Positions 4,361 to 21,762 of a stretch of DNA of 64,000 nt are shown piece by piece; positions within the stretch are counted from its first letter, which is position 1; the number at the start of each line of letters is the position of its first letter. The translations under genes and the position numbers were made by a program. The notes beneath the pieces were generated by a model. It was not told the origin of the DNA. It saw nothing but the letters and a program-made list of their open reading frames with translations, and searched no databases. The stretch is from Streptomyces kanamyceticus (GTDB lineage: Bacteria; Actinomycetota; Actinomycetes; Streptomycetales; Streptomycetaceae). The stretch covers positions 1,798,001 through 1,862,000 of the forward strand of contig NZ_CP023699.1 of NCBI RefSeq assembly GCF_008704495.1, written 5' to 3'.

Positions 4361-5206
4361 CTAACGAGCGATGAACTCCATGGCCGATTCGACGATCTCC
4401 GGCTCGCCGAGGATCTTGCGGTGTCCGAGCCCCGCGGTGATCACCAGCTCCGCCCGTTCCCCGTACGCCTCCTTCAGCGCGTGCGCCTGTGCCACCGGCA
4501 CCATGTCGTCGTCCGTGTCATGGATGATCCGCATCGGTACGTCGATCTCCTCCGGTCCGCGCGTGGCGTCGAACAGCGCCCAGGGGTCGGTGACTTCGGC
4601 GAAGAGCCGGTGCTCGATGCGGTCGCGCAGGTCCTCGCGCAGGCCCCGCCGCAGCCCCAGGATCCGGGCGAACTCGTCGGGGAAGTGCCCGAAGTCCTTC
4701 ACCGCCGCCACGGTGACCAGGCGCCCGGCCCGCACGTCGCCGCGGAGCGCGAGGAGGATGCTGGTGGCACCGAGGGAGTGCGCGACGACCGAGTGGAACG
4801 CGCCGTAGCGCCGCTGGAGCCCGCCGATGATCTCGCGGTACTCAAGGATCGTCGTGGACTTGCCGCCCGAACTCCCGTGTCCCGGGGCGTCGAAGGAGAT
4901 CGGCGTCAGACCGAGCGCCTCCAGGTGCGGCACGAAGGCGGCGTACCGCGAGGCCCTGGACTGCCAGCCGTGCAGCATCAGGACGGGGCGCTCGCCGGTT
5001 CCCCAGCGGTACACCCGCACCTGCTTGCCGTTGACGGACAGCTCCTCGGTGACGGCGCGCTCGTGGGCGGCGCGCTCGGCGGGCAGCACCTTGCCGCGCC
5101 GCACCGGACGACAGAAGAGACCGAAGGCGAGCCGCCCCGCGAGGGCGGGGGCGGGCCGCGCCACCGCGTTCAACAGCCCACCGACGAACAACTCCACGCG
5201 GCTCAT
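4361..5206 (-). CDS. alpha/beta hydrolase
   Basis: Alpha/beta-hydrolase of 281 residues. Visible features are an oxyanion-hole region LMLHGWQSRASRY, a nucleophile elbow VVAHSLGATS (Ser), the acidic region HDTDDDMVPV and the terminal histidine region ITAGLGHRKILG, so the catalytic triad is complete. The ATG at 5206 overlaps the stop of the upstream lyase gene by 4 bp (ATGA), supporting both the start and co-transcription. It is the last gene before the MFS promoter. It could act as an editing thioesterase, releasing esterase or amide hydrolase for the pathway; the sequence does not decide. Confidence 0.8.
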   Translation of the reverse strand: MSRVELFVGGLLNAVARPAPALAGRLAFGLFCRPVRRGKVLPAERAAHERAVTEELSVNGKQVRVYRWGTGERPVLMLHGWQSRASRYAAFVPHLEALGLTPISFDAPGHGSSGGKSTTILEYREIIGGLQRRYGAFHSVVAHSLGATSILLALRGDVRAGRLVTVAAVKDFGHFPDEFARILGLRRGLREDLRDRIEHRLFAEVTDPWALFDATRGPEEIDVPMRIIHDTDDDMVPVAQAHALKEAYGERAELVITAGLGHRKILGEPEIVESAMEFIAR

Positions 5207-6642
5207 GCGCCCCGCTCCCCCTGCACGAAACCAGCAGCCCGCACCGGATGCCGCCGCAGGGCCTCGTGCGTCAGCTCGGCCGCCGCGCCCGTGTATCCGG
5301 CCGGGTCCAGGAGCTCCGCGAGGGCTCGCGGGTCGAAGCGGTCGGTGATCCGCGGATCCCCGGCAAGCACCGTCGCCAGCGGGCGGCCCGAGGTCGCGGA
5401 CTCCCGTGCGGCCCGGCTCATGACCTCCTTCGCCGCGGCCTTTCCGAGAGCGGGCGCGAGTACCGCCGCGAGCCGCTCCGAGACGATCAGGCCGCCGGTG
5501 AGGCCCAGGTTCTCCCGCATCCGCGCGGGCCGCACCTCCAGGCCCGCCACCAGCTCGCGCGCGGTGTGCGCGGCGCCTCCCGCCAGGCGCAGGCACTCGC
5601 GCAACGGCTGCCACTCGGCGTGCCAGGCACCGGCCGAGCGCTCGTCCTCCGACAGCAAGGTCTGCGTCAACACACTGGCGTAGGCGGGCACTTGGAGAGC
5701 CGCCGAGCGGATCAGTGTGGCCAGTGCGGGGTTCCGCTTCTGCGGCATCGCCGACGAGACGCCCCGGCCTGCCGCGGCGGGCTCGGCCACCTCGGCGACC
5801 TCCGTACGGGCCAGGGACTGCACGTCCACCGCGATCTTCCCCAGCACCCCGGTGGTCAGGGCGAGTTCGGCGGCGAGGGCGGCGATCGGCAGCCGGTTGC
5901 TGTGCCAGGGCAGCGCCGGGGCGCTCAGGCCCGTCTCCGCGGCGAACCGGTCGGTCAGCCGCCGCGCGTAGCCGTCCGTGGGCGCCCCGCCGCTGTGCAG
6001 CTTCTCGTACTCGACGTAGCCCGCCAACGTTCCTGCCGCGCCGCCCAGTTGGACGACCAGGCCATCCTCCCGCAGCACCCGCAGCCGGTCCGCCGCCGCG
6101 CCCACCGCGGTCAGCCAGCCCGCCGCCTTGAGGCCGAACGTCGTCGGCACCGCGTGCAGCGCGAGCGTGCGCCCCGCCATCAGCGCGTCCGCGTGCTCCT
6201 CGGCAAGCGCCCGCAGCGAGCCCGTGATGTGCTCCAGGTCCGCCGCCAGGATCGCGAGGGTGCGCCCGGCGACCAGCATCAGCGCGGTGTCGAAGATGTC
6301 CTGGCTGGTGGAGCCGCGGTGCACGTAGTCGGCGGCCGCCGGGTCCTTGTCGGCCACCAGGCGCGTGAACGCCTGCACCAGGGCGACCACCGGGTTGGCC
6401 GCGCCCCTGCTGAGCACGGCGAGTTCGCGCAGGTCCAGGAGTTCGGCGCGGGCCAGCGCGGTGATGCTCTCGGCCGCCTGCGCGGGCACGTTGCCGAGGG
6501 CGGCCTGGGCCCGGACGAGGGCCGCCTCGGCGTCGAGCATCGCCTGCAGCCAGGCGCCGTCGGACGTCGCGGCCTCGGCGGGCGTACCCGCGCGGACCGG
6601 GCTGAGCAGCCCGGCGTCGAGGGAGGGAAGGGTGCTGGTCAC
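5203..6642 (-). CDS. creD: CreD-type nitrosuccinate lyase (fumarase/aspartase superfamily)
   Basis: Protein of 479 residues in the adenylosuccinate lyase / 3-carboxymuconate cycloisomerase superfamily. The signature loop SSAMPQKRNPA is present (about residue 280), as is the upstream motif HRGSTSQDIFDTAL. Followed by a CreE-like flavoenzyme in the same operon, it is best read as nitrosuccinate lyase, which splits nitrosuccinate into fumarate and nitrite as in cremeomycin and fosfazinomycin biosynthesis. Function is inferred from the pair, since sequence alone could also fit a cycloisomerase. The GTG start overlaps the upstream stop by GTGA, giving translational coupling that suits a toxic product and an unstable intermediate. 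Confidence 0.78.
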   Translation of the reverse strand: MTSTLPSLDAGLLSPVRAGTPAEAATSDGAWLQAMLDAEAALVRAQAALGNVPAQAAESITALARAELLDLRELAVLSRGAANPVVALVQAFTRLVADKDPAAADYVHRGSTSQDIFDTALMLVAGRTLAILAADLEHITGSLRALAEEHADALMAGRTLALHAVPTTFGLKAAGWLTAVGAAADRLRVLREDGLVVQLGGAAGTLAGYVEYEKLHSGGAPTDGYARRLTDRFAAETGLSAPALPWHSNRLPIAALAAELALTTGVLGKIAVDVQSLARTEVAEVAEPAAAGRGVSSAMPQKRNPALATLIRSAALQVPAYASVLTQTLLSEDERSAGAWHAEWQPLRECLRLAGGAAHTARELVAGLEVRPARMRENLGLTGGLIVSERLAAVLAPALGKAAAKEVMSRAARESATSGRPLATVLAGDPRITDRFDPRALAELLDPAGYTGAAAELTHEALRRHPVRAAGFVQGERGA

Positions 6643-8636
6643 CTTGTCAGCTCTCCGATCATCTCGCTGTCCTGGCGGGCGCCCCCGCCCAGGCCGAGTA
6701 CGGCGAGGGCGATGGCGTCGGAGTCCTGCAGCGTCACCGAGTTCACGCCGGGCCTGATGCCCGCCGCGGTCGCCCAGTGCACGGACTCGGTGGGCACGCC
6801 GAAGGCGAAGCGCCGCGGATGCGCCCGGCCCGCCGCGTCGATCAGGTGGAACGGCGCGTCGGTGACGGCGAGTCCGCCCGTCTCGTACACGGAGCCGTCG
6901 GGGTCGGTCACCTCGTACGAGCGGCACTGCCGTTCCTGGAGGAGCCGCAGCAGCAGGGGATCGGCGGTGACCCGCAGGTCGATCTCCGGGAGGCGGGCCT
7001 CGATCAGGGTGGTCGCCCAGGTCAGCGAGTCCGGCACGGCGGCGGACTCGATGGTGAACGCCCGCGCGGAGTCGTCCGTCGCCGCCCGCACGTCGGGGCC
7101 GAGCACCCGCAGCACACCGGCCTCGATCAGGGCGATGGCCTCCTCGATGCGCCGGGCGGGCGGGCCGATGGAGAGGAACGCGTTCAGCGGCGTGTACCAG
7201 GCGTCCAGGTCCGCGCGGTGCGAACCGCCGGTCAGGCCGCCGTGGTCGATGACCAGCCGGAGTTCGTTGCGCAGATCGCGCAGGACGTCGAGCGCCGACT
7301 TGAGCGGCCCCGCCACGTTGCCCGCGCGGGCCGCCCTGAGGTCGTCGCGCAGGTGGTCCACGAGCCAGTCCGTGAACTCCTTCGGCGCGCCGAACTCCCG
7401 CCCCGCGTAAGGGCGGGCGACGCGGTCCCAGTCCCAGCGGTCCGCCGCGTCGATGCCGTACGCGTCCAGGATCTCCCGCTCCCGCGCACTGCCGGGAGCG
7501 GCCGCCAGGTAGCGGGTGCGCAGCAGTTCGGCGTCCAGGGGGCGGCCCTCGCCGGTGAGCAGGGCGGTGTAGTAGACCGTCTCGACCTCCTTGGAGACCA
7601 GCGGCCACAGCGTGCCGCGGAAGTCGATGCCGCCGTGCCGCCGGGACCGCTCGCACAGGTCCTTGATCACGTCGGGGGTCAGGACGGCGGGCTCGTGGCG
7701 GCCGTGCGCGCCCTTCTGGTTCTCGCCGCGCGAGTGGAAGGGAAGGCCCCGCCGGGATCCGGCGACCAGGCGCGGTTCGCGGCCCGAAGCGCGGTAGACG
7801 AGGCCGCCCCTGCCCCCTTCGCCGCGCGGTTCGAACCTGCCGCCCCTACCGAGCGTCAGGAGCGCCATGTAGTCGAAGAAGTTCAGGCCGAGCCCGAGCA
7901 GGGCGACCGTCTCGCCCGGCTGTACGGGCGAGAGGTCCACGTCGGCGGGGTTGGCGGGCACCACGTAGCCGAGGCCGTGCGCGTGCGCGAAGCCGCCGAG
8001 TTCGCGCTGGCGCGGTGAGCGGCGCACCGGCAGGTGGCCCTGGGCGAGGACGACGGCGTCGAGCCCCTCGATCAGCGTGCCGTCGTCGAGCAGGACGCTC
8101 TGGGCGCCGCCCTCGGCTCCGTCGGCGCCGTCGGCCGTGCCGGGCTCGTCGTCCAGGGCCACCGCACGGGCCTTGTGGACGACGGTGGTCAGCCGGTTCG
8201 GCGCCGTCTTCACGACCCGCTGGAAGACCCACTCCAGGTAGTGGCCGTAGAAGGCGCGCGAGGGGTAGGAGTCGGGGCCGAGCGCGCGGGCCTCGGCGAG
8301 GACGTGCTCGTCGTAGTGCCGGTCGTCCATCGGGCCGATGAGGATGAGGAAGCGTGCCCATTCGTACAGGCTCGGGCCCGGCGCGAGCTCTCCTTGGACC
8401 TCCACGCTTTCGTCGGTGAACATCGTGACCTGGGAGGCCACCGTGTTCATGAGGAGGTGTGCGGACTGGTCGCTACGCCACACCTGTCCGGCACCGGGCG
8501 GAAACGGGTCGACCACGTGCACGGTGATCACCGTCTCCGCCGGGGCCGACACGGCGTTCGCACACAGCCGTTCAAGGACCGAGAGCCCGCGGGGCCCGGC
8601 ACCGATGAGGCAGACGTCGAGCCGTCGGCTGGTCAT
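6639..8636 (-). CDS. creE: CreE-type flavin monooxygenase (aspartate to nitrosuccinate)
   Basis: FAD/NAD(P)-binding protein of 665 residues. A Rossmann motif GAGPRGLSVLERL lies at the N terminus, followed by VHVVDPFPPGAGQVWR and NTVASQVTMFTDE, and a second nucleotide-binding region VALLGLGLNFFDY. This size and motif set are those of the family including CreE and FzmM, which oxidise the amine of aspartate to nitrosuccinate. Next to a lyase of the CreD type it completes the nitrous-acid (aspartate-nitrosuccinate) pathway. The ATG at 8636 has GGAGAG 8 bp upstream; upstream in-frame ATGs lack this. The assignment rests on family resemblance recalled from memory plus gene pairing. Confidence 0.8.
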   Translation of the reverse strand: MTSRRLDVCLIGAGPRGLSVLERLCANAVSAPAETVITVHVVDPFPPGAGQVWRSDQSAHLLMNTVASQVTMFTDESVEVQGELAPGPSLYEWARFLILIGPMDDRHYDEHVLAEARALGPDSYPSRAFYGHYLEWVFQRVVKTAPNRLTTVVHKARAVALDDEPGTADGADGAEGGAQSVLLDDGTLIEGLDAVVLAQGHLPVRRSPRQRELGGFAHAHGLGYVVPANPADVDLSPVQPGETVALLGLGLNFFDYMALLTLGRGGRFEPRGEGGRGGLVYRASGREPRLVAGSRRGLPFHSRGENQKGAHGRHEPAVLTPDVIKDLCERSRRHGGIDFRGTLWPLVSKEVETVYYTALLTGEGRPLDAELLRTRYLAAAPGSAREREILDAYGIDAADRWDWDRVARPYAGREFGAPKEFTDWLVDHLRDDLRAARAGNVAGPLKSALDVLRDLRNELRLVIDHGGLTGGSHRADLDAWYTPLNAFLSIGPPARRIEEAIALIEAGVLRVLGPDVRAATDDSARAFTIESAAVPDSLTWATTLIEARLPEIDLRVTADPLLLRLLQERQCRSYEVTDPDGSVYETGGLAVTDAPFHLIDAAGRAHPRRFAFGVPTESVHWATAAGIRPGVNSVTLQDSDAIALAVLGLGGGARQDSEMIGELTR

Positions 8637-8700
8637 AGTCAGTCTCTCCACTGAATCGAAAGTCGTTGTGGCCATGCGGCGCGGTCCTGCGCAGGGACCC

Positions 8701-9609
8701 TCAGTTCCCGGCCGCCGCACCCGTCAGGCTCAGTCCGCCGGGGGCGAGCCCCGGTATCCGGCCGCGCCCCCGCACCCCGCGCACCAGGGCGGAGGCGAGG
8801 TGCGCCCTGCTGCTGCCGTACCGCTCGGGCGGCACGGCGGGCGAGGCCGCGCCCATGTCCCGCAGCGCGTCCACGAGCGTGCCGAGCTCGGTGGCGACCT
8901 CGGCGAGGACCTCCGCGACCGCCGTGGCGTTCGAGCCGAGGATGTCGGTCCACAGCTCCGCGTCGCCCCCGGCGATCCGCGTCACATCGCGCAACCCCTG
9001 CCCGGCGAGCTGGAGTTGGGAGTCGTCCCCGTCCATGAGCCGGGCGGCCACCAGGCTCGCCACCACGTGCGGGGCGTGCGAGGTGAGGGCCACCGCCCTG
9101 TCGTGCGCGGCGTGGGCCATCACCAGCGGCCGCGCCCCGCAGAGCCCGGCCAGTTCCCGCACCCGCCGCACGGTCGCCGCACCGGTCTGCGCCGCCGGGG
9201 TGAGCACCCACGGCCTGCCGCGGAACAGATCGCCCCGCGCCGCGAGCGGCCCCGACTGCTCCCGGCCCGCCATGGGGTGGCCGCCCAGGTAGCGGGTCAG
9301 ATCGCAGCCGAGCTCCGCCGCCTCCTCCTGCGGCCGCACCTTGACGCTGGCCACGTCGGTGAAGTCCTCGGCCAGTTCCCGCAGTTGATACTCGTGCAGC
9401 GTCGCGGCGACGTGCTGCGGGGGTACGGCGATGACGGCGAGGTCCACCGGCGTGCGCGGGAACCCGACCACACCGGCCCCGAGATCGGCCGCGGTCCGCG
9501 CCACCTCGGGGTCGCGGTCGATGAGGTGGACGGGCACGCCCCGACCCCGCAGGGCCAGGGCGATGGAGGTACCGATCAGGCCGGTCCCGACCACCGCGGC
9601 ACTGCGCAT
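8701..9609 (-). CDS. pdh: prephenate dehydrogenase (Hpg pathway Pdh)
   Basis: Protein of 302 residues. It has an N-terminal NAD-binding motif VVGTGLIGTSIALALRGRG, a GGHPMAGREQSGP active-site segment and SHAPHVVASLVAARL, all typical of prephenate dehydrogenases. It makes 4-hydroxyphenylpyruvate from prephenate. There is no ACT regulatory domain, as in biosynthetic-cluster copies that feed 4-hydroxyphenylglycine. The stop of the upstream dioxygenase and the ATG at 9609 share one base (TGATG). With hmaS two genes upstream, hmo (17526) and hpgT (20416), the four-enzyme Hpg route is complete. Confidence 0.9.
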   Translation of the reverse strand: MRSAAVVGTGLIGTSIALALRGRGVPVHLIDRDPEVARTAADLGAGVVGFPRTPVDLAVIAVPPQHVAATLHEYQLRELAEDFTDVASVKVRPQEEAAELGCDLTRYLGGHPMAGREQSGPLAARGDLFRGRPWVLTPAAQTGAATVRRVRELAGLCGARPLVMAHAAHDRAVALTSHAPHVVASLVAARLMDGDDSQLQLAGQGLRDVTRIAGGDAELWTDILGSNATAVAEVLAEVATELGTLVDALRDMGAASPAVPPERYGSSRAHLASALVRGVRGRGRIPGLAPGGLSLTGAAAGN

Positions 9610-10526
9610 CAGCGGCTGCTCCACAGCAGGGGCAGGTACTCGGGGTCGCTGTAGTCCGGGGTGCCCGCCGCGGTCCTGCGCACCAGCAGGTCGTGGTTGT
9701 AGGCGACCTGGGTGCCGTCCGAGCGGCGGAAGTCGCGGTAGCGGTTCTCGCCGTCCTGCAGGTGGAAGGAGATGGCGCGGCGCGGGCGGTCGCTGACGTT
9801 CGCGCCGCTGCCGTGGTAGGTGCGGCAGTGGTGGAAGTTGACGTGGCCCTTGGGGATGTGGACGGGGATCTTGACGACCTCGACGCCGTTGTAGCTCGCG
9901 TTCTCCTCGAGCATCTCGTCGAGTTCGCTGCGGTCGCGCTCGGCGAAGTGCAGCGACGTCGTGTCGTTCTCCGCCATCTCCTTCCACAGGTGGCTGCCGT
10001 CCACCATGGTGATCGTGCCCATCTCCTCGCCGCAGTCGTGGAAGGGGATGAACGCGGTCAGCATCCGCTCGGAGGTGGACGTGGCCCAGTAGTGCCGGTC
10101 GAAGTGCCAGGGCACGATGTTCGACTGCTCCTCGGCCACCGGCGGCTTGAAGATCAGGGTGGACTGGAACACCCGTATCCGCTCGGCCTCGGCGATCCGC
10201 GCGGCCACCGCGCCGAGCAGCGGCTTGCGCAGGATGCGGCCGATCGTGTCGTCCTCGTAGTGGATGTAGTCGTTGTGGCGCTGCACCGGGCCGTGCTCCG
10301 GCTCCCAGTAGGCCAGCTTGGGCGGGCGGACGGGCAGGGTGCGGTCGCGGTGCCCGGCGTAGAAGTTCTCGCTCGCCGACTCCAGGAGGTCGATCTCCTC
10401 GTCGGTGAAGAGCTTCTTGGACAGGTACCAGCCGTGCTGGGCGTAGAAGAGGACGTCCTCGTCGGTGGGGAGGAGTTCGCGCTCTTCCTCCGTCAATTCG
10501 AACAGCGTGGCATCGTGAACGGTCAC
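9609..10526 (-). CDS. PhyH-family Fe(II)/2-oxoglutarate dioxygenase
   Basis: Phytanoyl-CoA dioxygenase family protein of 305 residues. The metal triad is visible as HFDRHYW (His-x-Asp, about residue 140) and HCRTYHGSG (distal His), and the 2-oxoglutarate-binding Arg is in SDRPRRAISFHL. Members hydroxylate or desaturate small or carrier-bound substrates. GTG start at 10526 with GGAAGA 3-8 bp upstream. The gene lies between pdh and hmaS, so its substrate may be an Hpg-derived intermediate or the acyl chain; this cannot be settled from sequence. An N-N-forming or nitrogen-oxidising side reaction is conceivable but unsupported. Confidence 0.85.
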   Translation of the reverse strand: MTVHDATLFELTEEERELLPTDEDVLFYAQHGWYLSKKLFTDEEIDLLESASENFYAGHRDRTLPVRPPKLAYWEPEHGPVQRHNDYIHYEDDTIGRILRKPLLGAVAARIAEAERIRVFQSTLIFKPPVAEEQSNIVPWHFDRHYWATSTSERMLTAFIPFHDCGEEMGTITMVDGSHLWKEMAENDTTSLHFAERDRSELDEMLEENASYNGVEVVKIPVHIPKGHVNFHHCRTYHGSGANVSDRPRRAISFHLQDGENRYRDFRRSDGTQVAYNHDLLVRRTAAGTPDYSDPEYLPLLWSSR

Positions 10527-10667
10527 GGGTCTTCCTTCGGTGCGAGTGCTGCGATGCGGATGCTGCGGCGCAGGTCGTACTGAGGGTGGTGAGGGTGCTG
10601 CGCCGCAGTGCTGCGGGTACTGCGGAATGCGGGCAACGGGAAGGCGCGCGCTACGGGCCCGGGCCCG

Positions 10668-11732
10668 TCAGGCGGTCGCCTTCTCGCGGGCCACGGCCTC
10701 GTAGAGGGCCTTGATGTTGCCGCTGCCGAACGTCCGGGCGCCGTGGCGGTCGATGACCTCCCAGAAGAAGGTGTTCCTGACGTGCAGGGACTGGGTGAAG
10801 ATCTGGAAGACCTGACCCCAGTGGTCCTGGTCGACCAGGACGTTGGTGCGCCGCAGGTCCTCGATCTTCAGGTCCGGACGGCCCAGGCGCTCCTCCAGCT
10901 CGTCGTAGTACGCGTCGGGCGTCTCCAGGAACCGCACGCCGCGCGACTCCAGGGCGGGCACCGCGGTGACGATGTCGTCGGCCAGGAGCGCCAGGTGCTG
11001 CACGCCCGCGCCGCCGTGCCGTGCGAGGAAGCCGTCGATCTGGCCCGGCTTGCGGTCGGTGACCGGCTCGATGAGGGTGAACGTCACCTTGCCCGAGGGG
11101 CTCTGCACCACCTTGGAGTCCATGGCCTGCTCGCCGACCTCGATGAACTCCTCGAAGATCTGGGTGAACCCGAAGACCTTCTCGTAGAAGGCGACCGTGG
11201 GGCGCAGCTGGCCCGCGGGCAGGCAGATCGCCGCGTGGTCCACGGTGTTCAGCAGGTGCGGGCCCTCGTCCGGGTCCTCGGCGAAGATGTCCATCACGCC
11301 GGGCAGGAACTCGGCCCGGTCGCCGGTGCGCTGCACGAAGCGGTGGGCGACGTCGCCGAAGCCGAGCACGGAGGCGGTGACGACCTCGGTGCCCTCCTTG
11401 GTGTGCGTCCGGGGCTGCTCGACGGCGAGGGCGCCGCGCTCGACGGCGAGGGCGAACGCCTTGGCGGCGTCGGTGACCTCGAAGGCGATGTTGGCGACGC
11501 CGTCGCCGTGCCGGGCCACGTAGGCGGCCGCGGGGTGCTCGGGGGTCAGCGCGGAGGTGAGCACGACCTCGATGCCGCCCTGGCGCAGGAGCAGCGAGCG
11601 CCGGTCGGCCTGACCGGTCTCGGGGCCCGCCTGACCGCACACGCGGAACCCGAACGCCGTGCACAGGAAGAACGCCGACTGCTGGGCGTCCCCGACGTAG
11701 AACTCGATGTGGTCTACAGCTCCGATGTTCAC
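10668..11732 (-). CDS. hmaS: 4-hydroxymandelate synthase (HPPD-like)
   Basis: Protein of 354 residues with the two vicinal-oxygen-chelate halves of the HPPD family. Iron ligands are visible in NTVDHAAICL (His), GVQHLALL (His) and FFWEVIDRHG (Glu). The C-terminal stretch FGSGNIKALYEAVAREK differs from the GKGNFKALFE typical of homogentisate-forming HPPD and resembles 4-hydroxymandelate synthase. The presence of Pdh, hydroxymandelate oxidase and HpgT in the same cluster makes HmaS the better reading. It converts 4-hydroxyphenylpyruvate to 4-hydroxymandelate. ATG at 11732, just after the ketosynthase gene. HPPD remains the alternative. Confidence 0.85.
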   Translation of the reverse strand: MNIGAVDHIEFYVGDAQQSAFFLCTAFGFRVCGQAGPETGQADRRSLLLRQGGIEVVLTSALTPEHPAAAYVARHGDGVANIAFEVTDAAKAFALAVERGALAVEQPRTHTKEGTEVVTASVLGFGDVAHRFVQRTGDRAEFLPGVMDIFAEDPDEGPHLLNTVDHAAICLPAGQLRPTVAFYEKVFGFTQIFEEFIEVGEQAMDSKVVQSPSGKVTFTLIEPVTDRKPGQIDGFLARHGGAGVQHLALLADDIVTAVPALESRGVRFLETPDAYYDELEERLGRPDLKIEDLRRTNVLVDQDHWGQVFQIFTQSLHVRNTFFWEVIDRHGARTFGSGNIKALYEAVAREKATA

Positions 11733-11745
11733 GATTCCCTTTCCT

Positions 11746-14657: not shown

Positions 14658-14708
14658 TCCCCGGTGTCTCCACTCATCTGGATCGTGCTCTTGGCGTACG
14701 GACGCTGG

Positions 14709-14761: not shown

Positions 14762-14846
14762 CGACCGCGGGACACTCCCTCCCGCCCGCTGCCGTGGGCA
14801 CCGGGGCGGGGAGGGTTCGCCCGGCGTGCCAGGACGGTTCGTGGGC

Positions 14847-15110
14847 TCACCCGGCCGTCGCGGCGGCGGACGCGCGCTCGACGATCTCCTTGACCAGGCC
14901 GGAGACGGTCAGGAGCGCGACGGTCTCCATCTCGTCCTCCTCGAACTTCACGCCGTAGGTGTCCTCGACCTGGATGGCTATCTCCGCGACGGAGAGGGAC
15001 TCGAGGTCGAGGCCCGCCGGGCCGAGCGGGGTCTCGCCGGTTACGTCGGAAACGTCGTAGTTCATGTTCTGAAGGGCCTCGATGATGAACTTCTCAACCT
15101 CAGCGGACAT
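14847..15110 (-). CDS. acyl carrier protein (first of two)
   Basis: Small acidic protein of 87 residues. The phosphopantetheine serine lies in GLDLESLSVAEIAIQ, at about residue 37, where the usual DSL is LES. The length and the helix-2 pattern after the Ser fit a type II ACP. The ATG at 15110 has a strong GAGGGAG 9 bp upstream. It is the first gene of the long minus-strand operon. Only 18 bp separate its start from that of the divergent PPTase at 15129, so the promoter for each gene must overlap the other gene or the short gap. Confidence 0.9.
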   Translation of the reverse strand: MSAEVEKFIIEALQNMNYDVSDVTGETPLGPAGLDLESLSVAEIAIQVEDTYGVKFEEDEMETVALLTVSGLVKEIVERASAAATAG

Positions 15111-15128
15111 TTGATTGACTCCCTCTTC

Positions 15129-15797
15129 ATGGACAGGCACCCGGGCGGTTCCCCGGACACGGTGACGGTGCTGTGGTGCACCACGGACGGCGACGAGCGG
15201 CGCAAGGCGCACACCTTGGTGGTGCGGGCCGCGGCCGGTCTGCTGGGTGTCGCGCCGTCCGAGATCTGGTTGGAGCACGAGGCCGGTGGCCGCCCGGTCC
15301 TGGGCGGCGCAGGCAAGTCGCTGCACGTCAGCGTCGCTCACGCTCGCGGGGCGCTGGCCGTCGCGGTGACCGGCCTTGCCCCCGTGGGTGTGGATGTGGA
15401 AGTGGTGCGGCGACTGCGCGCCGCGGCGATGTCCCGGGCGTGGCTGGACCCCGCCGAGGCGGCGTGGGTCACGGCTCTGCCCGAGGACGATCAGTCAGTG
15501 GCGTTCTTGTGGCTGTGGACGCAGAAGGAGTCGGTCGGCAAGGCGCTCGGCCAGGGCCTGCGGCAGGGCGGCATGAGCCGCCGGGTGCCGCTGCCCGGAC
15601 AGTGGCCGGCGGGGAACGACGCTCCGTCGGTGCCGCGGCGGCTGCCCGGTGATCCGGGTGTCGTGTCCGCGGCTGTCGTGGTGGGCGGCGGGCTGCACGT
15701 CATCGGTGTCGCGCTGCACGGGGGCACCGGGAGTGCCTCGTGCGCCGACGGCGTGCGTCTCGATGTCCGCGAGGTGTGCCCGACGGAGCTGGGCTGA
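15129..15797 (+). CDS. 4'-phosphopantetheinyl transferase (Sfp type)
   Basis: Protein of 222 residues with Sfp-type metal and CoA motifs: GVDVEVV in the middle and WLWTQKESVGKALGQGL (the W-x3-KE-x3-K motif). It activates ACP and peptidyl carrier domains. The ATG at 15129 has no visible ribosome-binding site, and the divergent ACP starts 18 bp away, so either the transcript is leaderless or translation starts lower down at a GTG near 15159. A second, AcpS-type transferase is encoded at 23773, so the cluster has both classes. Confidence 0.85.
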   Translation: MDRHPGGSPDTVTVLWCTTDGDERRKAHTLVVRAAAGLLGVAPSEIWLEHEAGGRPVLGGAGKSLHVSVAHARGALAVAVTGLAPVGVDVEVVRRLRAAAMSRAWLDPAEAAWVTALPEDDQSVAFLWLWTQKESVGKALGQGLRQGGMSRRVPLPGQWPAGNDAPSVPRRLPGDPGVVSAAVVVGGGLHVIGVALHGGTGSASCADGVRLDVREVCPTELG

Positions 15798-15812
15798 ACT
15801 CGGCTGAACCGG

Positions 15813-17234
15813 TCACACACCGGCGGCCGACCGCGCGGCCGCGCGGAGGACGTCGGCGTTGCGCACGGGCTTGCCGGTCGCGGTGCGGGGGAGTTCGGGC
15901 AGCACGTGCAGGGTGCGCGGCCGCTTGTAGGGGGCGAGGCGGGCGGCCAGACAGTCGGCGAGGCCGTCGAAGACGGCACGTTCCTCGACCATCACGAAGG
16001 CTTCGATGCCGGTGCCCTGGACGACCACGGCCCCCGTGATGCCGGGCAGGGCGCTGATGGACGCCTCGACTTCCGAGAGGTCCACCTTGAGCCCGCCGAC
16101 GGAGACCTGCGAGTCGAGCCTGCCGAGCACCGTGAGGAGTCCGGTGGCGTCGTCGAAGCTGCCCGCGTCCTTGGTGCGCAGCCAGCCGTCGACGAACCGG
16201 GTGGGGTCGGAGGGGCCGACGTACGGGGATTCGGGCAGTCCGAGCAGGATCTGGCCCTCCTCGACCCGTACCCGCATGCCGGGTGCGGGGGTCAGGCCGG
16301 GGCGGGTGGACCCGGTGAGGTCCGCGGCGATGACACCGGCCTCGGTCATGCCGTACATGACGCCGAGCTCGGCGTCGTAGCCGTGGGTGAACCGCTCCCA
16401 GACGTCAGCCCTGACGAGCTCGCCGCCGGTGATCATGCGGCGCAGCTGGGGCAGCCTGGGCGGGTTCTGCGCGGCGGCGAGGACCGCCGCCTGCGAGGGG
16501 ACGCCGAGGACGGTCGTCGGCTCGTCGCCCGCGGCGACGGCCTTGAGGATGCCGTCGACCGTCTGGCGCGCGGGCAGGACCACCTGGGTCCCGCTGGCCA
16601 GGCCGTACAGGAGTCCGCCGACCAGGCCGAGCACATGGACGATCGAGGCGAGCACGACGGTGCGTTCGCCCCGGTGGGGGAAGCCGTCGAGCTGGCCGTA
16701 CCGGTCGATCTCCGCGAGGAGGCTGCCCACGGTCCTGCCGATGACCTTGGAGGGGCCCGTGGAGCCGGAGCTGAGCTGGAGCAGGATGTGCTGCGAGGCG
16801 GCCGGGCGGCCGGTGCGCAGGGGGGTGACGCGGGTGGTGACGTCGAAGAAGCCGCGGAGCGTTCCGCTGACGTCGGTGACCGGCTCGACGACCAGCTGCG
16901 GTGTCAGTCGCGCGACGGCTTTGCCCACTTCGTGGGTGGTCAACCGGTAGTCGAGCAGCGCCACTTGGGCGCCCGCACGCCAGCCGGCGAGCATCGCGAC
17001 GATACAGCTGAGCGAGGGCGGCAGTCGCACCGCGACCACGCCTCCCGCGACGAGTCCCGCCGCTTGGTAGCGGGCCTGTTCGGCGGCGACGAGCTCGCGG
17101 AGTTGCGCGCGGCTCACGGCTTCGCCCAAGTGCAGGGCGACATCCCCCCCATCACCCTGGAGCAATATGTCATCGACCCAGGCGCCCTCGGTGCACCTTT
17201 TAGGTGCCGTTTCCCCCATTGGAATCCCACCCAT
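15813..17234 (-). CDS. second ANL-superfamily acyl/aryl-AMP ligase
   Basis: Compact ligase of 473 residues. The P-loop is LQLSSGSTGPSKV, the adenylate motif is GVMYGMTEAGV, the hinge region is GRLDSQVSVGGLKVD and the C-terminal lysine is in RTATGKPVRN. All key ANL elements are present but the N-terminal domain is shorter than in CoA ligases, as in stand-alone aryl-AMP ligases. ATG at 17234; an in-frame ATG at 17219 with GTGGGA upstream is also possible. It is convergent with the PPTase and about 290 bp downstream of hmo, with its own upstream region. It could activate an aryl acid, or be the nitrite-coupling enzyme instead of the ligase at 13011. Confidence 0.82.
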   Translation of the reverse strand: MGGIPMGETAPKRCTEGAWVDDILLQGDGGDVALHLGEAVSRAQLRELVAAEQARYQAAGLVAGGVVAVRLPPSLSCIVAMLAGWRAGAQVALLDYRLTTHEVGKAVARLTPQLVVEPVTDVSGTLRGFFDVTTRVTPLRTGRPAASQHILLQLSSGSTGPSKVIGRTVGSLLAEIDRYGQLDGFPHRGERTVVLASIVHVLGLVGGLLYGLASGTQVVLPARQTVDGILKAVAAGDEPTTVLGVPSQAAVLAAAQNPPRLPQLRRMITGGELVRADVWERFTHGYDAELGVMYGMTEAGVIAADLTGSTRPGLTPAPGMRVRVEEGQILLGLPESPYVGPSDPTRFVDGWLRTKDAGSFDDATGLLTVLGRLDSQVSVGGLKVDLSEVEASISALPGITGAVVVQGTGIEAFVMVEERAVFDGLADCLAARLAPYKRPRTLHVLPELPRTATGKPVRNADVLRAAARSAAGV

Positions 17235-17525
17235 CTAAATCCCCAACGAACAACCCGAACGTCTTGGTGACAGCACTGTCCATAGGACATGTCGGGTAGG
17301 TAGTCGCCCCAGCCCCTCGGTGTCAGATCCACCGTTATTCCCTCGGCGACGCCTCCATCGTTACTTACTACCATCGAGTAATCAAGGGATGATTTCTATT
17401 AAATTACTACTTGCAAGTAGGACTCCAGAAACCGCTTGCATTTCTATTTTTGGGCATACCGAGACCCCCATCCACCTCGGTGAATCCGGTGAATGGGAAT
17501 CGATTGAATCGTTCAAACCATCAGT
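17235..17525. promoter_or_regulatory. AT-richer intergenic region upstream of the second ligase
   Basis: About 290 bp of markedly lower GC than its surroundings, with no convincing gene. Near its upstream end are tandem GGTGAAT units (about 17478-17493), a CGATT-G-AATCG dyad (17501-17511) and GTTCA-ATTA-TGAAC overlapping the hmo stop. These are possible activator sites or a weak hmo terminator; none can be assigned to a known regulator. Confidence 0.4.
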
Positions 17526-18605
17526 TCAATTATGAACAATTCCTGAATTCCCGAAGTCCCCCACTCGTGCCGCCCCCATGAGCGCCATCACTTCTTCGAA
17601 CTCATCGAGCAGCACCCGGAGCACGCCGGCTACGCCCGCGCTTCCGGAGTGCGCCAGTCCCCATAGCGCGGGGCGCCCCACGAATACCGCGTCGGCGCCG
17701 AGACAGAGCGCCTTCGCGATATCCGCGCCGTGCCGGATCGACCCGTCGAGGATCAGCCGACAGCGTCCGTCCACCGCCTCGACGATCCCCGGAAGGGCAT
17801 CGGCCGCCGGGATCGCGAAATCGAGCTGGCGACCCCCGTGATTCGAGACGACAAGCGCGTCGACACCGTATTTCACGGCCAGCTCGGCATCCTCGGGCGC
17901 GAGGACGCCCTTCAATACGAGCGGCAGAGAAGTGCGCTCACGCAGCCAGGCAAGATCCCTCCAGGTAATGGAGGGGTCAAATTGCTCCTTCGAATGCCGC
18001 GCAATGGCGGACTCGCCCGCCGCTCCCCCATGGGAAGCGGACATGACGGCCGGGTCGACATTCACCGCGCGGATACCCGCGGGAACGGCGAACCCATTGC
18101 GCGCGTCCCGCGGCCGGTGTGCCACGCGCGGCGCGTCGACGGTCAGGACCAGCGCCTGATAACCGGCGTCCTCCGCCCGCCGCACCAGCTCGACGAGCGT
18201 CTCCCGCCGTCTGAGCCAGTACAGCTGAAGCCAAAGGGGCCCGCTCGCCGCCGCGGCGATGTCCTCGAGGGTACGGCTCGCGAACATGCTGACCGTGAGC
18301 AGCGCACCCGCCGCACCGGCCGCCCGCGCGGTCGCCAACTCACCCTCGGGGTGCGCCAGTTGGTGGTACGCCATGGGCGCGATGCCCAGCGGTGCGGCGA
18401 GCCGCGAGCCGAGCAGGGTCACGCCGGGGTCGCATCCGGAGACGTCGACGAGGCATCGCGGGCGGAGCCTGATCCGGTCGAGCGCGGCCCGCCCCGCCGA
18501 GAGCATCGACTCGGTGCCGCTGCCCCCTTCGAGGAAGTCCCACACGGGAGCGGGAAGCCGCCCCTCGGCCTCGGCCCGGTACTCGCGCAACGTCAGCGCC
18601 GCCAC
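17526..18605 (-). CDS. hmo: 4-hydroxymandelate oxidase (FMN-dependent)
   Basis: FMN-dependent alpha-hydroxy-acid oxidase of 359 residues. Visible features include APMAYHQLAHPEGE, LQLYWLRRRE, LVLTVDAP, VLKGVLAPEDAE and the catalytic histidine/arginine segment VVSNHGGRQLDF, followed by phosphate-binding DGSIRHGADIAKAL and GADAVFVGRP. In this family and context it oxidises 4-hydroxymandelate to 4-hydroxybenzoylformate, the third step of Hpg synthesis. GTG start at 18605 with GGAGA just upstream. Transcribed from its own promoter, which carries the same operator-like element as the exporter promoter, and divergent from tetR. Confidence 0.9.
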   Translation of the reverse strand: MAALTLREYRAEAEGRLPAPVWDFLEGGSGTESMLSAGRAALDRIRLRPRCLVDVSGCDPGVTLLGSRLAAPLGIAPMAYHQLAHPEGELATARAAGAAGALLTVSMFASRTLEDIAAAASGPLWLQLYWLRRRETLVELVRRAEDAGYQALVLTVDAPRVAHRPRDARNGFAVPAGIRAVNVDPAVMSASHGGAAGESAIARHSKEQFDPSITWRDLAWLRERTSLPLVLKGVLAPEDAELAVKYGVDALVVSNHGGRQLDFAIPAADALPGIVEAVDGRCRLILDGSIRHGADIAKALCLGADAVFVGRPALWGLAHSGSAGVAGVLRVLLDEFEEVMALMGAARVGDFGNSGIVHN

Positions 18606-18641
18606 TCTTCGTCTCCCCCGTACTCACTCAACCCGTGCACC

Positions 18642-18673
18642 AAACTAAACGCACGGCCGTACAGTAACTGTAC
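18642..18673 (-). promoter_or_regulatory. hmo promoter/operator with adjacent dyad
   Basis: ACTAAACGCACGGCCGT (18644-18660) matches the element before the MFS gene. On the minus strand its core (18650-18660) is followed after 2 bp by TAGTTT (18647-18642), a plausible -10. Overlapping it is a perfect dyad, GTACAGT-A-ACTGTAC (18659-18673). Confidence 0.6.
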
Positions 18674-18687
18674 TCTTGCACAATGTC

Positions 18688-18712
18688 CGCACGGTCGTCC
18701 ACTTAGTAGGGT
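18688..18712 (+). promoter_or_regulatory. tetR promoter with a fourth operator core
   Basis: CGCACGGTCGT (18688-18698) repeats the operator core, followed by TAGGGT (18707-18712), a typical Streptomyces -10 hexamer, about 60 bp before the tetR start. Fits autoregulation by the TetR protein. Confidence 0.5.
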
Positions 18713-18770
18713 GTGCATCTCGGCCGCTGGGACACCGACCCCCCGCGCAGGGAGAATGAGGAGGTGGTGC

Positions 18771-19415
18771 GTGACCACGACCCGCACCGATGGGCGGATC
18801 GCACGCGGAAACCAGACCCGACAGTTGATTCTGCGGCGCGCCGTGGAGATCGCATCGGTGGAAGGCCTCGAAGGGCTGTCACTGGGGCGTCTGGCAGGTG
18901 AACTCCGGCTCAGCAAGAGCGGGGTCTTCGCCCTCTTCGGCTCGAAGGAAGAGCTGCAACTGGCGACCGTACGCGCCGCCATCAAGATCTATATCGAATA
19001 CGTCGTGCAGCCCAACCGCGAACTGTCCTCGGGAATACGCCGGTTGTGGAGCCTGTGCACCAGCTGGCTCACCTACTCCGAGCAGCGGGTCTTCCCCGGC
19101 GGCTGCTTCTTCTACTCGGTCTCCGCCGAGTACGACGCACGCGAGGGCAAGGTCCACGACACGGTCGCCGGCGCACACGGCAGCTGGTTCAAATACCTTG
19201 AGCAGACGATCGAGGAGGCGAGGAAGGCGGGCGAGGTACGCGACGACACCGACATCCCCCAACTCGCCTTCGAGCTGGTCGCCCTCCTTGAGATGGCCAA
19301 CTCCGAATCCGTACTGCACTCCAACTTCACCTGCTACGCCAGAGCGGCCGAGGGCATCCTGAACCGTCTCCGCGACGTCTCGACGGAACCGTCCCTGCTG
19401 CCCGACACACCTTGA
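18771..19415 (+). CDS. TetR/AcrR-family transcriptional regulator
   Basis: Regulator of 214 residues. The N-terminal helix-turn-helix runs from RQLILRRAVEIASVEG to LSLGRLAGELRLSKSGVFALFGSKEEL, followed by a ligand-binding C-terminal half (RRLWSLCTSWLTYSEQ... GCFFYSVSAEYDAR). GTG at 18771 was chosen for the strong GAGGAGG 6 bp upstream; ATG at 18756 is in frame but has a poorly placed site. It is divergent from hmo. It is the only regulator in the cluster and so the best candidate for the protein that binds the shared operator elements at 4302, 18644, 18688 and 21836. Confidence 0.88.
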   Translation: MTTTRTDGRIARGNQTRQLILRRAVEIASVEGLEGLSLGRLAGELRLSKSGVFALFGSKEELQLATVRAAIKIYIEYVVQPNRELSSGIRRLWSLCTSWLTYSEQRVFPGGCFFYSVSAEYDAREGKVHDTVAGAHGSWFKYLEQTIEEARKAGEVRDDTDIPQLAFELVALLEMANSESVLHSNFTCYARAAEGILNRLRDVSTEPSLLPDTP

Positions 19416-19460
19416 AACCCACCGCGGTCCGCCGGACCGCGGCCCTGGTCCGGAGGCACC

Positions 19461-20411
19461 ATGGCATTCGATCCACAACTCCAGGCGCTGTACGACCAGC
19501 GCGCGGAGCAGGGGGTCCGCCCCCTGTACACGATGACCCTGGAGGAGGCGCGGGCAGCCGATCTCGCCGCCATCCAGGCCGAATCGGGCACTCCCGAGCC
19601 GGTGGCGGAGGTGACCGACGAGTCGATACCGGGACCGGCGGGACCGCTGCCCGTGCGCGTCTACCGGCCCGCGGGCGAGGGCCCGCTGCCGGTGCTCGTC
19701 TACTTCTTCGGCGGCGGCTGGACGCTGGGCTCGATCGCGACCAGTGACGCGATCTGCCGCAGCCTCGCCAATGCCGCGGGATGCCTCACCGTCGCTGTCG
19801 GCTACCGCCTCGCACCCGAGCACAAGTTCCCCGCCGCGCCGCGGGACTGCCTCGCGGGCGTGCGCTGGGCGGTCGAGCACGCGGGCCGGTTCGGCGGCGA
19901 CCCCGCGCGGGTGGCCGTCGGCGGCGACAGCGCGGGCGGCAACCTCGCCGCGGTGGTCTCGCTCATGGCGCGCGACGCCCAGGGCCCGGACATCCTGGCT
20001 CAACTGCTCGTCTACCCCAACACGGACTACCTCGCCGACACCGCGTCGCGCCGCGAGAACACCGATCCGCTGCTCTTCAACGACAAGTCCGTGCAGTGGT
20101 ACTGGGACAACTACCTGGCCTCGCCCGACGACGGGCCCGACCCCCTCGTCTCGCCGCTGCGGGCACCCGACCACTCGGGCCTGCCCCAGGCCCTGGTGAT
20201 CACCGCCGAGTACGACCCGCTGCGCGACGAGGGCGAGCAGTACGCCGAGCGCCTGCGGGCGAGCGGCGTGCGCGTCGATGCGACCCGCTACCCGGGCGTG
20301 GCACACGGCTTCTTCGCCATGGCGGGGACCCTGGACGCGGGCCGCCGAGCCATCGAAGAGGCCGCCACCTACCTGCGTACCGCCTTCGCAGGCGCCACCA
20401 CGGAAGATTGA
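19461..20411 (+). CDS. alpha/beta hydrolase, hormone-sensitive-lipase-like esterase
   Basis: Esterase/lipase of 316 residues. The nucleophile motif is GGDSAGGNLA, the acid is in ITAEYDPLRDEG and the base in GVAHGFF. The usual HGGG oxyanion motif reads FFGGGW, so His is replaced by Phe; the triad itself is intact. GGAGG lies 5 bp before the ATG. It is 45 bp after tetR and 4 bp before hpgT, so the three are likely one transcript. Possible roles are ester or amide hydrolysis during maturation or release. Confidence 0.85.
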   Translation: MAFDPQLQALYDQRAEQGVRPLYTMTLEEARAADLAAIQAESGTPEPVAEVTDESIPGPAGPLPVRVYRPAGEGPLPVLVYFFGGGWTLGSIATSDAICRSLANAAGCLTVAVGYRLAPEHKFPAAPRDCLAGVRWAVEHAGRFGGDPARVAVGGDSAGGNLAAVVSLMARDAQGPDILAQLLVYPNTDYLADTASRRENTDPLLFNDKSVQWYWDNYLASPDDGPDPLVSPLRAPDHSGLPQALVITAEYDPLRDEGEQYAERLRASGVRVDATRYPGVAHGFFAMAGTLDAGRRAIEEAATYLRTAFAGATTED

Positions 20412-20415
20412 TCCC

Positions 20416-21762
20416 ATGGCAGACACCACGACTCCCGCGAACACCACGTCAGGCGCGCTCGACCTCGGCGAGCTGCACGGCTCCCTGACCGACCCGGTCC
20501 TCGACGCGATGAACTTCCTCAACGAGGTCGTCGCCCGCTTCCCCGACGCCATCTCCTTCGCCCCCGGCCGACCGTCCGAGGGCACGTTCGAGCCCGAGGA
20601 CCTCGCGCGCCACCTGCGGTCCTACAGCGACCACTTGGAGCAGGAGCGCGGCTGGTCCCGCGACCAGGTGCGCACCCAGCTCTTCCAGTACGGCCGCACC
20701 AACGGCGTCATCCACGACCTCATCGCCCGCACCCTCGCCAACGACGAGGACATCCACGTGAGCCCGGAGTCGGTGGTCGTGACGACCGGCTGCCAGGAGG
20801 CGATGCTGCTCACCCTGCGCGCGCTGTTCGCGCGGCCCGAGGACACCCTGCTCGTCAGCTCGCCCTGCTACGTCGGGGTGACCGGCGCCGCGCGGCTGCT
20901 CGACATCGCGGTGCGCCCGGTCGCGGAGGGCGCCGCGGGCCCGGACCCCGACGCGATACTCGCCGCCGTGCGCGAGCTCAGGGCGCAGGGCCGACGGCCG
21001 CGCGCCCTGTACGTGGTGCCGGACTTCGCCAACCCGTCCGGCGCGAGCATGACCGTCGCCGCCCGCGAACGGCTCCTGGAGATCGCCGTCCAGGAGGACC
21101 TGCTGGTCCTTGAGGACGATCCGTACGGGTTCTTCGTGCGCGAGGGATCCGCGCGGCCCACCCTCAAGGCCCTGGACCGCGAGCGCCGCGTCCTGCACCT
21201 GGGGTCGTTCTCCAAGACCGCGCTGCCCGGCGCGCGCGTCGGCTATGTGGTGGCCGACCAGGAGGTGGTGGGCCCGACGGGCGAGCGGACGCTGCTCGCC
21301 GACCAGCTCTCCAAGATCAAGAGCATGACGACGGTGAACACGTCGGCGATCAGCCAGGCCGTCATCGGCGGACTCCTCGTCGAGTCGGGCTACCGGCTCC
21401 GCGAGGCCAACGCGGCGGCGATCGACTACTACCGCGGCAACCTCAACGCCCTTCTCGCGGAGCTGGAACGGCACTTCCCCGCCGAGCGCAGGCAGCAGCT
21501 CGGGGTCGAGTGGAACCGTCCCGACGGCGGCTTCTTCCTCGTCGTACGCGTCCCGTTCGTGGCCGACACCAAGGCCCTGGAGCGCTCCGCCCGCAACTAC
21601 GGCGTGCTCTGGACGCCGATGGGCGACTTCTATCTGGACGGCGGCGGCGACCACCAACTCCGGCTCTCCTGCTCCGCGTTGAGCATGGCGGAGATCACCG
21701 AGGGCATCGGCAGGCTGGCCGCGTTCATCACCGAGCAGGCCGCGGAGGCGGCTGCCGGGTAG
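20416..21762 (+). CDS. hpgT: PLP aminotransferase, 4-hydroxyphenylglycine transaminase (HpgT type)
   Basis: Class I/II aminotransferase of 448 residues. The PLP lysine is in GSFSKTALPGARVGY, with the cofactor-binding DFANPSGASM and LEDDPYGFF upstream. The N-terminal region (ISFAPGRPSEGTFEPEDL) resembles HpgT and related MocR/KAT-like transaminases. It would convert 4-hydroxybenzoylformate to L-4-hydroxyphenylglycine, closing the Pdh-HmaS-Hmo-HpgT pathway. It could also act on 4-hydroxyphenylpyruvate as amino donor or product. It is followed by a perfect terminator. Confidence 0.87.
   Translation: MADTTTPANTTSGALDLGELHGSLTDPVLDAMNFLNEVVARFPDAISFAPGRPSEGTFEPEDLARHLRSYSDHLEQERGWSRDQVRTQLFQYGRTNGVIHDLIARTLANDEDIHVSPESVVVTTGCQEAMLLTLRALFARPEDTLLVSSPCYVGVTGAARLLDIAVRPVAEGAAGPDPDAILAAVRELRAQGRRPRALYVVPDFANPSGASMTVAARERLLEIAVQEDLLVLEDDPYGFFVREGSARPTLKALDRERRVLHLGSFSKTALPGARVGYVVADQEVVGPTGERTLLADQLSKIKSMTTVNTSAISQAVIGGLLVESGYRLREANAAAIDYYRGNLNALLAELERHFPAERRQQLGVEWNRPDGGFFLVVRVPFVADTKALERSARNYGVLWTPMGDFYLDGGGDHQLRLSCSALSMAEITEGIGRLAAFITEQAAEAAAG

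Follow-up and report, generated by a model that had tools for sequence, protein, structure and literature searches.

Introduction

The substrates named for the ATP-dependent diazotases of the CreM/AvaA6/Tri17 family are arylamines, hydrazones and hydrazines, together with pyrrolidines and piperidines in the case of Tri17 in vitro (PMC11705231; here and below, statements on published systems refer to the parts of each open-licence source covered). In the avenalumic acid (ava) and p-coumaric acid (cma) clusters, which use 3-amino-4-hydroxybenzoic acid (3,4-AHBA) as the amine-bearing aromatic block, diazotization-dependent deamination has been reported (PMC10777205). According to Kawai et al., 72 of 134 ava-related clusters lack avaE and avaD, and nitrite from other sources was proposed for such clusters (PMC10777205). 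Here, we describe a cluster of Streptomyces kanamyceticus in which an enzyme of this family stands among the genes for 4-hydroxyphenylglycine (Hpg). The stretch analyzed, hereafter the window, comprises the 64 000 nucleotides from 1798001 to 1862000 of a complete 10.13 Mb actinomycete chromosome, and the flank that was read shows that the cluster continues for ~26 kb to the left of the window start.

A sequence-only reading of the window had proposed that the genes for Hpg and for nitrite share one cluster, and its author knew of no described pathway pairing the two. Both gene sets do lie together, and all six genes named there are present, at or close to the positions given. In the open-licence literature searched, within the parts covered, we found no description of Hpg with nitrous acid, with diazo groups or with highly reducing type II systems, and none joining hydroxymandelate synthase or oxidase with nitrous acid, or nitrosuccinate or a diazotase with hydroxymandelate. 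That reading passed over the diazotase, which is the hub of the cluster, and a 3,4-AHBA cassette that lies a short distance beyond the window. We found that the pairing of the diazotase with the Hpg genes is real and conserved, and that the clusters carrying it apparently form a widespread and undescribed bacterial family. Judged by gene content, this is a diazotase system resembling ava in which the amine comes from another set of genes. If Hpg instead of an aminobenzoate is fed to an enzyme of this nitrite-using, N–N-forming family, as seems to be the case, a new class of reactive natural products would be expected.

The diazotase and the Hpg genes are conserved together

Relatives of the diazotase were collected from three sets of genomes. 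A scan of species genomes yielded 13 loci, nine from Streptomyces (70–88% identity) and four from the Catenulispora group (53–55%). Matches at E <= 1e-60 were present in 67 of 392 genomes of the same genus, several of them strains of the 13-locus scan, and matches at E <= 1e-140 in 59 of 200 genomes of the same family (our own included). From the genus we read 20 stretches, each no longer than 20 kb and picked so as to span the identity range, and from the family a further 20, which come from 17 genomes. The comparison comprised 54 diazotase rows in total (53 other loci and the window), and the gene counts in relatives given below rest on identity floors set gene by gene.

The diazotase was at least 49% identical to our own in 39 of the 53 loci, among which 36 contained Hpg genes and none contained GriI/GriH, the 3,4-AHBA synthase pair. 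In the other 14 loci, with identities below 45% (34–44%), Hpg genes were found in none and GriI/GriH in eight. Among the 36 Hpg loci, KAS, HmaS and PhyH were each present in 35, HpgT and ACP1 in 32, Hmo and AL2 in 31 and abh3 in 29 (the genes are listed in Table 1). The loci were selected by HmaS, Hmo or HpgT, so these three counts are not independent, whereas those of KAS, PhyH, AL2 and ACP1 are. The sole Hpg locus without PhyH (L019) begins at a contig end. A match to the chain length factor (CLF) was observed in 15 of the 36 loci; this is a better sign of a ketosynthase (KS)–CLF pair than the KS count (31/36), which also catches KAS and was not used.

The same division appeared in the diazotase tree. 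The Hpg label required two changes, compared with a mean of 14.7 after shuffling, and the 3,4-AHBA label two, compared with 7.6 (0 of 500 shuffles as low in each case), although near-copies among the rows inflate this clustering. Seven ava-type rows formed a separate starred clade, and the window diazotase nested among the Hpg-cluster diazotases, not the ava-type ones. Moreover, pairwise identities of the diazotase tracked those of HmaS, KAS, PhyH, Hmo, HpgT, AL2 and CreE (r 0.84–0.96; no value as high in 999 permutations for any of them), with r 0.93 over 11 rows for CreE; part of this tracking stems from the shared history of the strains. A diazotase at least 59% identical to our own is uncommon in the genus (11 of 392 genomes, our own included). 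Across the family, the enzyme is frequent, as the 59 genomes of 200 mentioned above indicate; 18 of the 20 such stretches read carried Hpg genes, and most of the family matches belong to one other genus, probably Kitasatospora.

Among the eight GriI/GriH loci, seven (L053–L059; diazotase 42–44%) also matched KS and CLF. Locus L057 shows the gene order published for ava and cma (PMC10777205); its diazotase passes the AvaA6 model (1032 bits, cut-off 975) and its neighbour passes the AvaA7 model (528, cut-off 400). Homologues of AvaA7, the diazo-removing denitrifying reductase, covering >40% of the query were found among the matches listed for six of the seven ava-type loci (L054–L059, not L053). 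Among the matches listed, which were in full for two of the three AvaA7 queries, none fell in the Hpg loci or the window.

As side observations, genes resembling E1 subunits of pyruvate dehydrogenase were seen by eye near PhyH and the diazotase in L018–L021, L075 and L082, and a KASIII-like gene adjoins the Catenulispora diazotase of L021.

Identity of the diazotase and the Hpg enzymes

The best curated match of the diazotase was NF058622, AvaA6 (3-aminoavenalumate diazotase), at 483 bits over the full length. Among PDB entries, it scored 379 bits with 8ztz, 313 with Tri17 (8tf7 and 9bq0; PMC11705231) and 267 with 9xb8, compared with 105 for the best ordinary ligase. On these comparisons, the predicted product belongs to the CreM/AvaA6/Tri17 family and is not an ordinary ligase. 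Thus, although two acyl carrier proteins (ACPs) and three ANL genes are present as the sequence-only reading had stated, one of its three ligases is an enzyme of the diazotase family. The window diazotase retains a GS(S/T)ExG-type motif with its Glu, and a loose pattern recovered the motif in 51 of the 54 rows (exceptions L062, L065 and L066); this Glu would correspond to the Mg-binding E352 of CreM. The diazotase had one match in all in its own genome.

All four enzymes proposed for Hpg, namely Pdh, HmaS, Hmo and HpgT, were recovered, Hmo being assigned by context. The structure closest to HmaS is 2r5v, which, like 3zgj and 7yvv, we take to be a hydroxymandelate synthase. Window HmaS carries FTLIEP where 4-hydroxyphenylpyruvate dioxygenase (HPPD; 1t47) has FPINEP. 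An HPPD-like gene of the same genome (6294971), used as a negative control, carries FPINEP, and the two other HmaS copies (766050 and 2470888), used as positive controls, carry LTLIEP and FTLIEP, respectively. This motif and the closest structure together indicate HmaS and not HPPD; in addition, T and I/L replace the P and N of HPPD in all 35 HmaS relatives.

PDB scores do not separate the hydroxyacid oxidases for Hmo (311 bits with 4-hydroxymandelate oxidase 5zzp against 306 with glycolate oxidase), and tandem entries named L-lactate oxidase scored more when two segments were summed (371 bits for 7f22). The gene is likely to be Hmo by its context, as paralogues (767125 and 2471958) adjoin both other HmaS genes. 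No curated HpgT model was passed by HpgT, and some of its relatives are named (S)-3,5-dihydroxyphenylglycine transaminase. Its homologues at 762086 and 2473121 lie within a few kb of the other HmaS copies, with large nonribosomal peptide synthetase (NRPS) genes near. The genome therefore holds two further Hpg sets of HmaS, Hmo and HpgT (762086–768153 and 2470888–2474395), three in all. In at least three relatives (P0010, P0108 and P0110), Pfam domains show an abh3-type hydrolase fused to the HpgT transaminase, which ties abh3 to the pathway.

The proposed pathway and the points against it

We give an even chance to the reading that the cluster encodes a nitrous-acid pathway of the ava kind, with Hpg in the place of 3,4-AHBA as the aromatic block that bears the amine and is diazotized by the hub enzyme. 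It is based on the gene content of the two cluster types, since both have a ligase, an ACP, a diazotase and, in part, KS–CLF, whereas the block supplying the aromatic amine differs. In this scheme, Pdh, HmaS, Hmo and HpgT would make Hpg, and CreE and CreD would release nitrite from aspartate. AL2 may load Hpg on ACP1, as AvaA1 loads 3,4-AHBA on AvaA3, after which KAS would add a malonyl unit and KS–CLF may add more in the relatives that have it. The diazotase, the likely link between the Hpg and nitrite halves, would then activate nitrite with ATP and convert the Hpg-derived α-amine, by then benzylic and next to a carbonyl, to an α-aryl diazo group. The N–N bond could be kept as a diazo compound, or as a pyrazole or hydrazone arising from its collapse. 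Finally, PhyH would oxygenate the product, and abh3 would release or trim it. As no AvaA7 was found, the N–N group is probably kept in the product; diazo, N-nitroso, hydrazine and triazene-type products, all suggested in the sequence-only reading, cannot be told apart by sequence.

The presence of a CreE-type flavoenzyme and a CreD-type lyase, claimed in that reading, holds, as both proteins match their families. CreE keeps all nine core residues tested and lacks two outer Arg (593 and 597), the core residues and Arg cluster being those of the L-aspartate N-hydroxylase described in PMC10404684. The pair would thus be predicted to give nitrite from aspartate.

Several observations weigh against diazotization of Hpg. 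The diazotase score of 483 bits is well under the NF058622 cut-off of 975, and the protein was therefore not filed as AvaA6 itself. A primary α-amine is not among the family substrates named in the covered parts of PMC11705231 and, as far as the literature covered extends, would be new for the family. The 3,4-AHBA cassette beside the cluster in this strain provides another amine. Hmo was missing from five and HpgT from four of the 36 Hpg stretches, some of these stretches being truncated at contig or stretch ends. Adenylation domains of NRPSs bind α-amines via an Asp; AL2 appears to lack this residue, although the alignment is gapped there. Three loci on the same diazotase branch, L052, L085 and L086, have no Hpg genes in their stretches; L085 and L086 nest within the Hpg group of the tree, and L052 lies at its base on a long branch.

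The nitrite genes add to these points. Of the 36 Hpg-type relatives, 10 have CreE and 9 have CreD. Among 20 genomes without CreE in the stretch, 11 had a copy of at least 57% identity elsewhere (in G410, it shares a contig with the diazotase at a distance of ~20 kb), four had only copies of 40–42%, and five had none (E <= 1e-60). On these counts, CreE and CreD are accessory, and the steady pairing is that of the diazotase with the Hpg genes. Either the clusters without CreE and CreD obtain nitrite from elsewhere, or some members do not use nitrite.

Two further loci deserve a separate remark. L052 (G204:C10:65001-85000) combines a diazotase, ligase, ACP and KS–CLF with CreE and CreD, and its stretch shows no genes for either Hpg or 3,4-AHBA; an adjoining open reading frame resembles, by eye, 3-deoxy-D-arabino-heptulosonate 7-phosphate (DAHP) synthase, and the locus possibly has a third amine source. 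L068 has CreE and no CreD match within the 20 kb read. Besides, in G448 a CreE copy lies ~7 kb from a further diazotase.

Alternative readings

The cassette in the left flank lies between the FAD monooxygenase and acyl-CoA dehydrogenase (ACAD) genes. Its GriI/GriH pair passes the broad subfamily models NF005556 and NF002625 and remains below the curated bagremycin/ferroverdin 3,4-AHBA models (279 of 500 and 444 of 750 bits). We assign it a 3,4-AHBA role because of the GriI/GriH pairing and the identity (62% and 56%) to the pair of L057, the locus with the ava/cma gene order. The cassette lacks a diazotase, and the genome contains one match to that enzyme in all; a second amine is thus on offer in this strain. 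It is accordingly conceivable, though in our view unlikely, that in this strain the diazotase acts on the arylamine of the neighbouring cassette, as in ava and cma, while Hpg enters separately, for instance by being coupled to the product through an azo or hydrazone link, much as pathways are coupled in the case of tasikamides. Known family members do diazotize arylamines. However, the cassette was found in none of the seven relatives read further out on the DES2 side, and Gri genes in none of the 36 Hpg loci. GriI was also absent from all 13 whole genomes, in a search without a positive control, though the same query matched eight loci elsewhere. The position of the window diazotase among the Hpg-cluster enzymes, and not the ava-type ones, also speaks against this explanation. 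The relatives without the cassette isolate the amine question and make it easy to test; S. flavidovirens and S. parvulus have CreE and CreD and showed no 3,4-AHBA genes in the flank covered. Apart from this, the cassette might share the window diazotase.

An explanation to which we give the same low weight is that the enzyme of the Hpg clade is no longer a nitrite-using diazotase and instead activates an acyl or aminoacyl substrate, with CreE and CreD being a separate later addition in some clusters. The patchy occurrence of CreE and CreD, including the nine of 20 genomes with distant matches or none, and the NF058622 score far under its cut-off are consistent with such a loss. Against this, Tri17 and two other family structures matched at 267–379 bits and the best ordinary ligase at only 105, a separate ligase (AL2) is already present, CreE tracks the diazotase where it occurs, and the ava-related clusters counted by Kawai et al. 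similarly lack avaE/avaD in more than half of cases. Diazotization that only removes the nitrogen of Hpg, so that a route other than AvaA7 would yield a hydroxyphenyl product free of nitrogen, has a precedent in the deamination reported for ava and cma but seems improbable, as no AvaA7 homologue appeared among the matches listed for the Hpg loci or the window and it would be wasteful for HpgT to make an amine merely to be removed.

A possible cellular target

A second FabI gene stands at the far end of the cluster, and its product is 67–69% identical to the housekeeping copy. Seven relatives likewise have an additional FabI within the cluster or next to it (S. flavidovirens, S. parvulus, WAC04229, DH41, S. 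buecherae, L067 and L068), and it adjoins HpgT in the last two, which are family genomes. It was absent from AJS327 in the stretch read, and the stretches of WZ.A104 and G167 were too short to tell. All eight aligned cluster FabIs (our own included) have Ala at the equivalent of E. coli G93, compared with Gly in the one housekeeping copy read. Changes at G93 have been linked to triclosan resistance (PMC9260719, PMC5006077). However, Ala occurs at this position in 50% of surveyed bacterial FabIs (PMC5006077), so its presence in the cluster copies is a hint only that the extra FabI may protect the producer. The copy nevertheless suggests a first cellular target to look at.

A more specific form of the Hpg diazotization reading, which we put forward as tentative, combines these points. 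The ANL diazotase would act on ACP-bound Hpg after its malonyl extension and convert the α-amine, so that an aryl α-diazo β-ketoacyl product (or the hydroxypyrazole formed by its cyclization) results, a reaction for which we found no description in any member of the family; this widespread product would inhibit FabI, and the change from Gly to Ala at the G93 position of the second FabI would counter the inhibition.

Other genes of the cluster

The coordinates of all features are summarized in Table 1.

Table 1. Features of the cluster and its left flank (window positions unless marked as genome)
Feature	Position	Strand	Evidence or remark
Second FabI	genome 1772330-1773109 (L023:7327-8109)		far end of cluster
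ACADs, ACP, fatty acyl-AMP ligase (FAAL), 4Fe-4S protein, patatin-like protein, abhydrolase, second FabI (row above), second TetR	beyond cassette		several by eye
3,4-AHBA/type II polyketide synthase (PKS) cassette	genome 1783334-1790714 (L022:334-7714)	-	GriI-, GriH-like enzymes, AvaA1-like ligase, FabV, ACP, KS, CLF-like, hotdog thioesterase
FAD monooxygenase	left flank, between edge NRPS and cassette	-	
Dimodular NRPS, N-terminal part	1..1690 (approximate start), left to about window position -5662	-	two condensation (C), two adenylation (A) domains; thiolation (T), thioesterase (TE) by eye
DES2, acyl-ACP-desaturase-type diiron enzyme	1750..2724	-	PF03405 1.3e-64 for longer frame 1750-3507; PDB 1za0 DesA2 161 bits
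Major facilitator superfamily (MFS) transporter	2805..4286	-	PF07690
Alpha/beta hydrolase	4361..5206	-	PF12697
CreD, nitrosuccinate lyase, predicted nitrite release	5203..6642	-	NCBIfam NF052556 703 bits, cut-off 650
CreE, L-aspartate N-monooxygenase (nitrosuccinate synthase)	6639..8636	-	661 bits, 60% identity to solved L-aspartate N-hydroxylase 8cp2
Pdh, prephenate dehydrogenase	8701..9609	-	PF02153, PF20463 (PDH_N, PDH_C)
PhyH-family Fe(II)/2-oxoglutarate oxygenase, HxD...H iron ligands	9609..10526	-	PF05721 1.7e-21; WHFD, HHCRTYH motifs
HmaS, 4-hydroxymandelate synthase	10668..11732	-	best PDB match 2r5v; FTLIEP motif
KAS, FabF-like ketosynthase	11746..13014	-	intact Cys-His-His motifs
CreM/AvaA6/Tri17-family ATP-dependent diazotase, cluster hub	13011..14657	-	family by homology
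ACP1	14847..15110	-	PF00550 8e-4, 20.0 bits, just below 20.8 cut-off
Sfp-type phosphopantetheinyl transferase, start uncertain	15168..15797	+	PF01648 2.6e-13
AL2, acyl/aminoacyl-ACP ligase	15813..17234	-	39% identical to AvaA1-like ligase of 3,4-AHBA cassette
Hmo, 4-hydroxymandelate oxidase by context	17526..18605	-	PF01070 FMN_dh, 430 bits
TetR regulator	18771..19415	+	PF00440, PF16925
abh3, esterase-like alpha/beta hydrolase	19461..20411	+	PF07859 252 bits; fused to HpgT in some relatives
HpgT, hydroxyphenylglycine aminotransferase family	20416..21762	+	homologue names and 56-57% identity to in-genome homologues near HmaS/Hmo
Mycothiol-dependent maleylpyruvate isomerase-like protein	21922..22542	+	PF11716
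ACP2	22572..22832	+	length, Ser motif, context; no Pfam match
Probable ferritin-like diiron protein	22872..23837	+	EEEAHHE and DEVQH motifs
AcpS-type phosphopantetheinyl transferase	23773..24204	+	PF01648
4HBT-type thioesterase	24201..24626	+	PF13279
Fatty acyl-AMP-ligase-like ANL enzyme	24623..26137	+	PF00501; FAAL type by context

The NRPS included in the sequence-only reading is real (PF00668 matches at genome positions 1798341–1799666 and 1795179–1796456). It stands at the left edge of the window, outside the region to which that reading had assigned the cluster, and is accessory, because only one of the seven relatives read on the DES2 side (WZ.A104) has it. We therefore rejected the incorporation of Hpg by this NRPS as a core role; its first A domain, moreover, appears to have a Ser-like code. 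DES2 (in the Streptomyces relatives), the MFS transporter and the alpha/beta hydrolase next to CreD are conserved.

For PhyH, a halogenase was ruled out by the presence of HxD. The strict PhyH pattern was recovered in 20 of 36 rows and is too strict to inform. The idea that KAS is a recent duplicate of FabF retained for resistance was rejected, the nearest KS in the genome being only 46% identical. A loose pattern recovered the KAS triad in 34 of 38 rows; the exceptions were L058 and L064, which are not Hpg loci, and L080 and L081, whose KAS lacks the Cys and NAHGT motifs in a simple pattern search. The predicted structure of the probable ferritin-like protein was of low confidence (mean predicted local distance difference test score, pLDDT, 41.7) and was discarded. 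A gene resembling IS605 OrfB/TnpB (Pfam OrfB_IS605 and Cas12f1-like TNB) lies at 32636–33955 on the minus strand of the window, and a search for tRNAs found none.

Comparison with known systems

The cluster shares with the ava and cma clusters a ligase, an ACP, an ATP-dependent diazotase and, in part, CreE, CreD and KS–CLF. In contrast to them, the Hpg core has neither the 3,4-AHBA synthase pair (AvaH/AvaI) nor, as far as found, AvaA7, and it has HmaS, Hmo, HpgT, KAS and PhyH. Tri17, CreM and Aha11, which are ANL diazotases or N-nitrosylases, belong to the same protein family as the hub enzyme, in which the Glu of GS(S/T)ExG is kept; neither Hpg nor another α-amino acid is named as their substrate in the covered parts of PMC11705231. 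The Hpg sets of NRPS clusters, two of which are present in this genome at ~0.76 and 2.47 Mb, contain the same HmaS, Hmo and HpgT, whereas here these genes go together with a diazotase, ligase, ACP and KAS, and the NRPS is accessory. Finally, the 4-diazo-3-oxobutanoate (dob) pathway resembles the present one in the predicted type of product, an α-diazo β-keto acid. In dob, a hydrazone is oxidized to give the diazo group, a step for which a ferritin-like diiron enzyme is the candidate (PMC13061610), whereas here it is predicted to be formed via nitrite.

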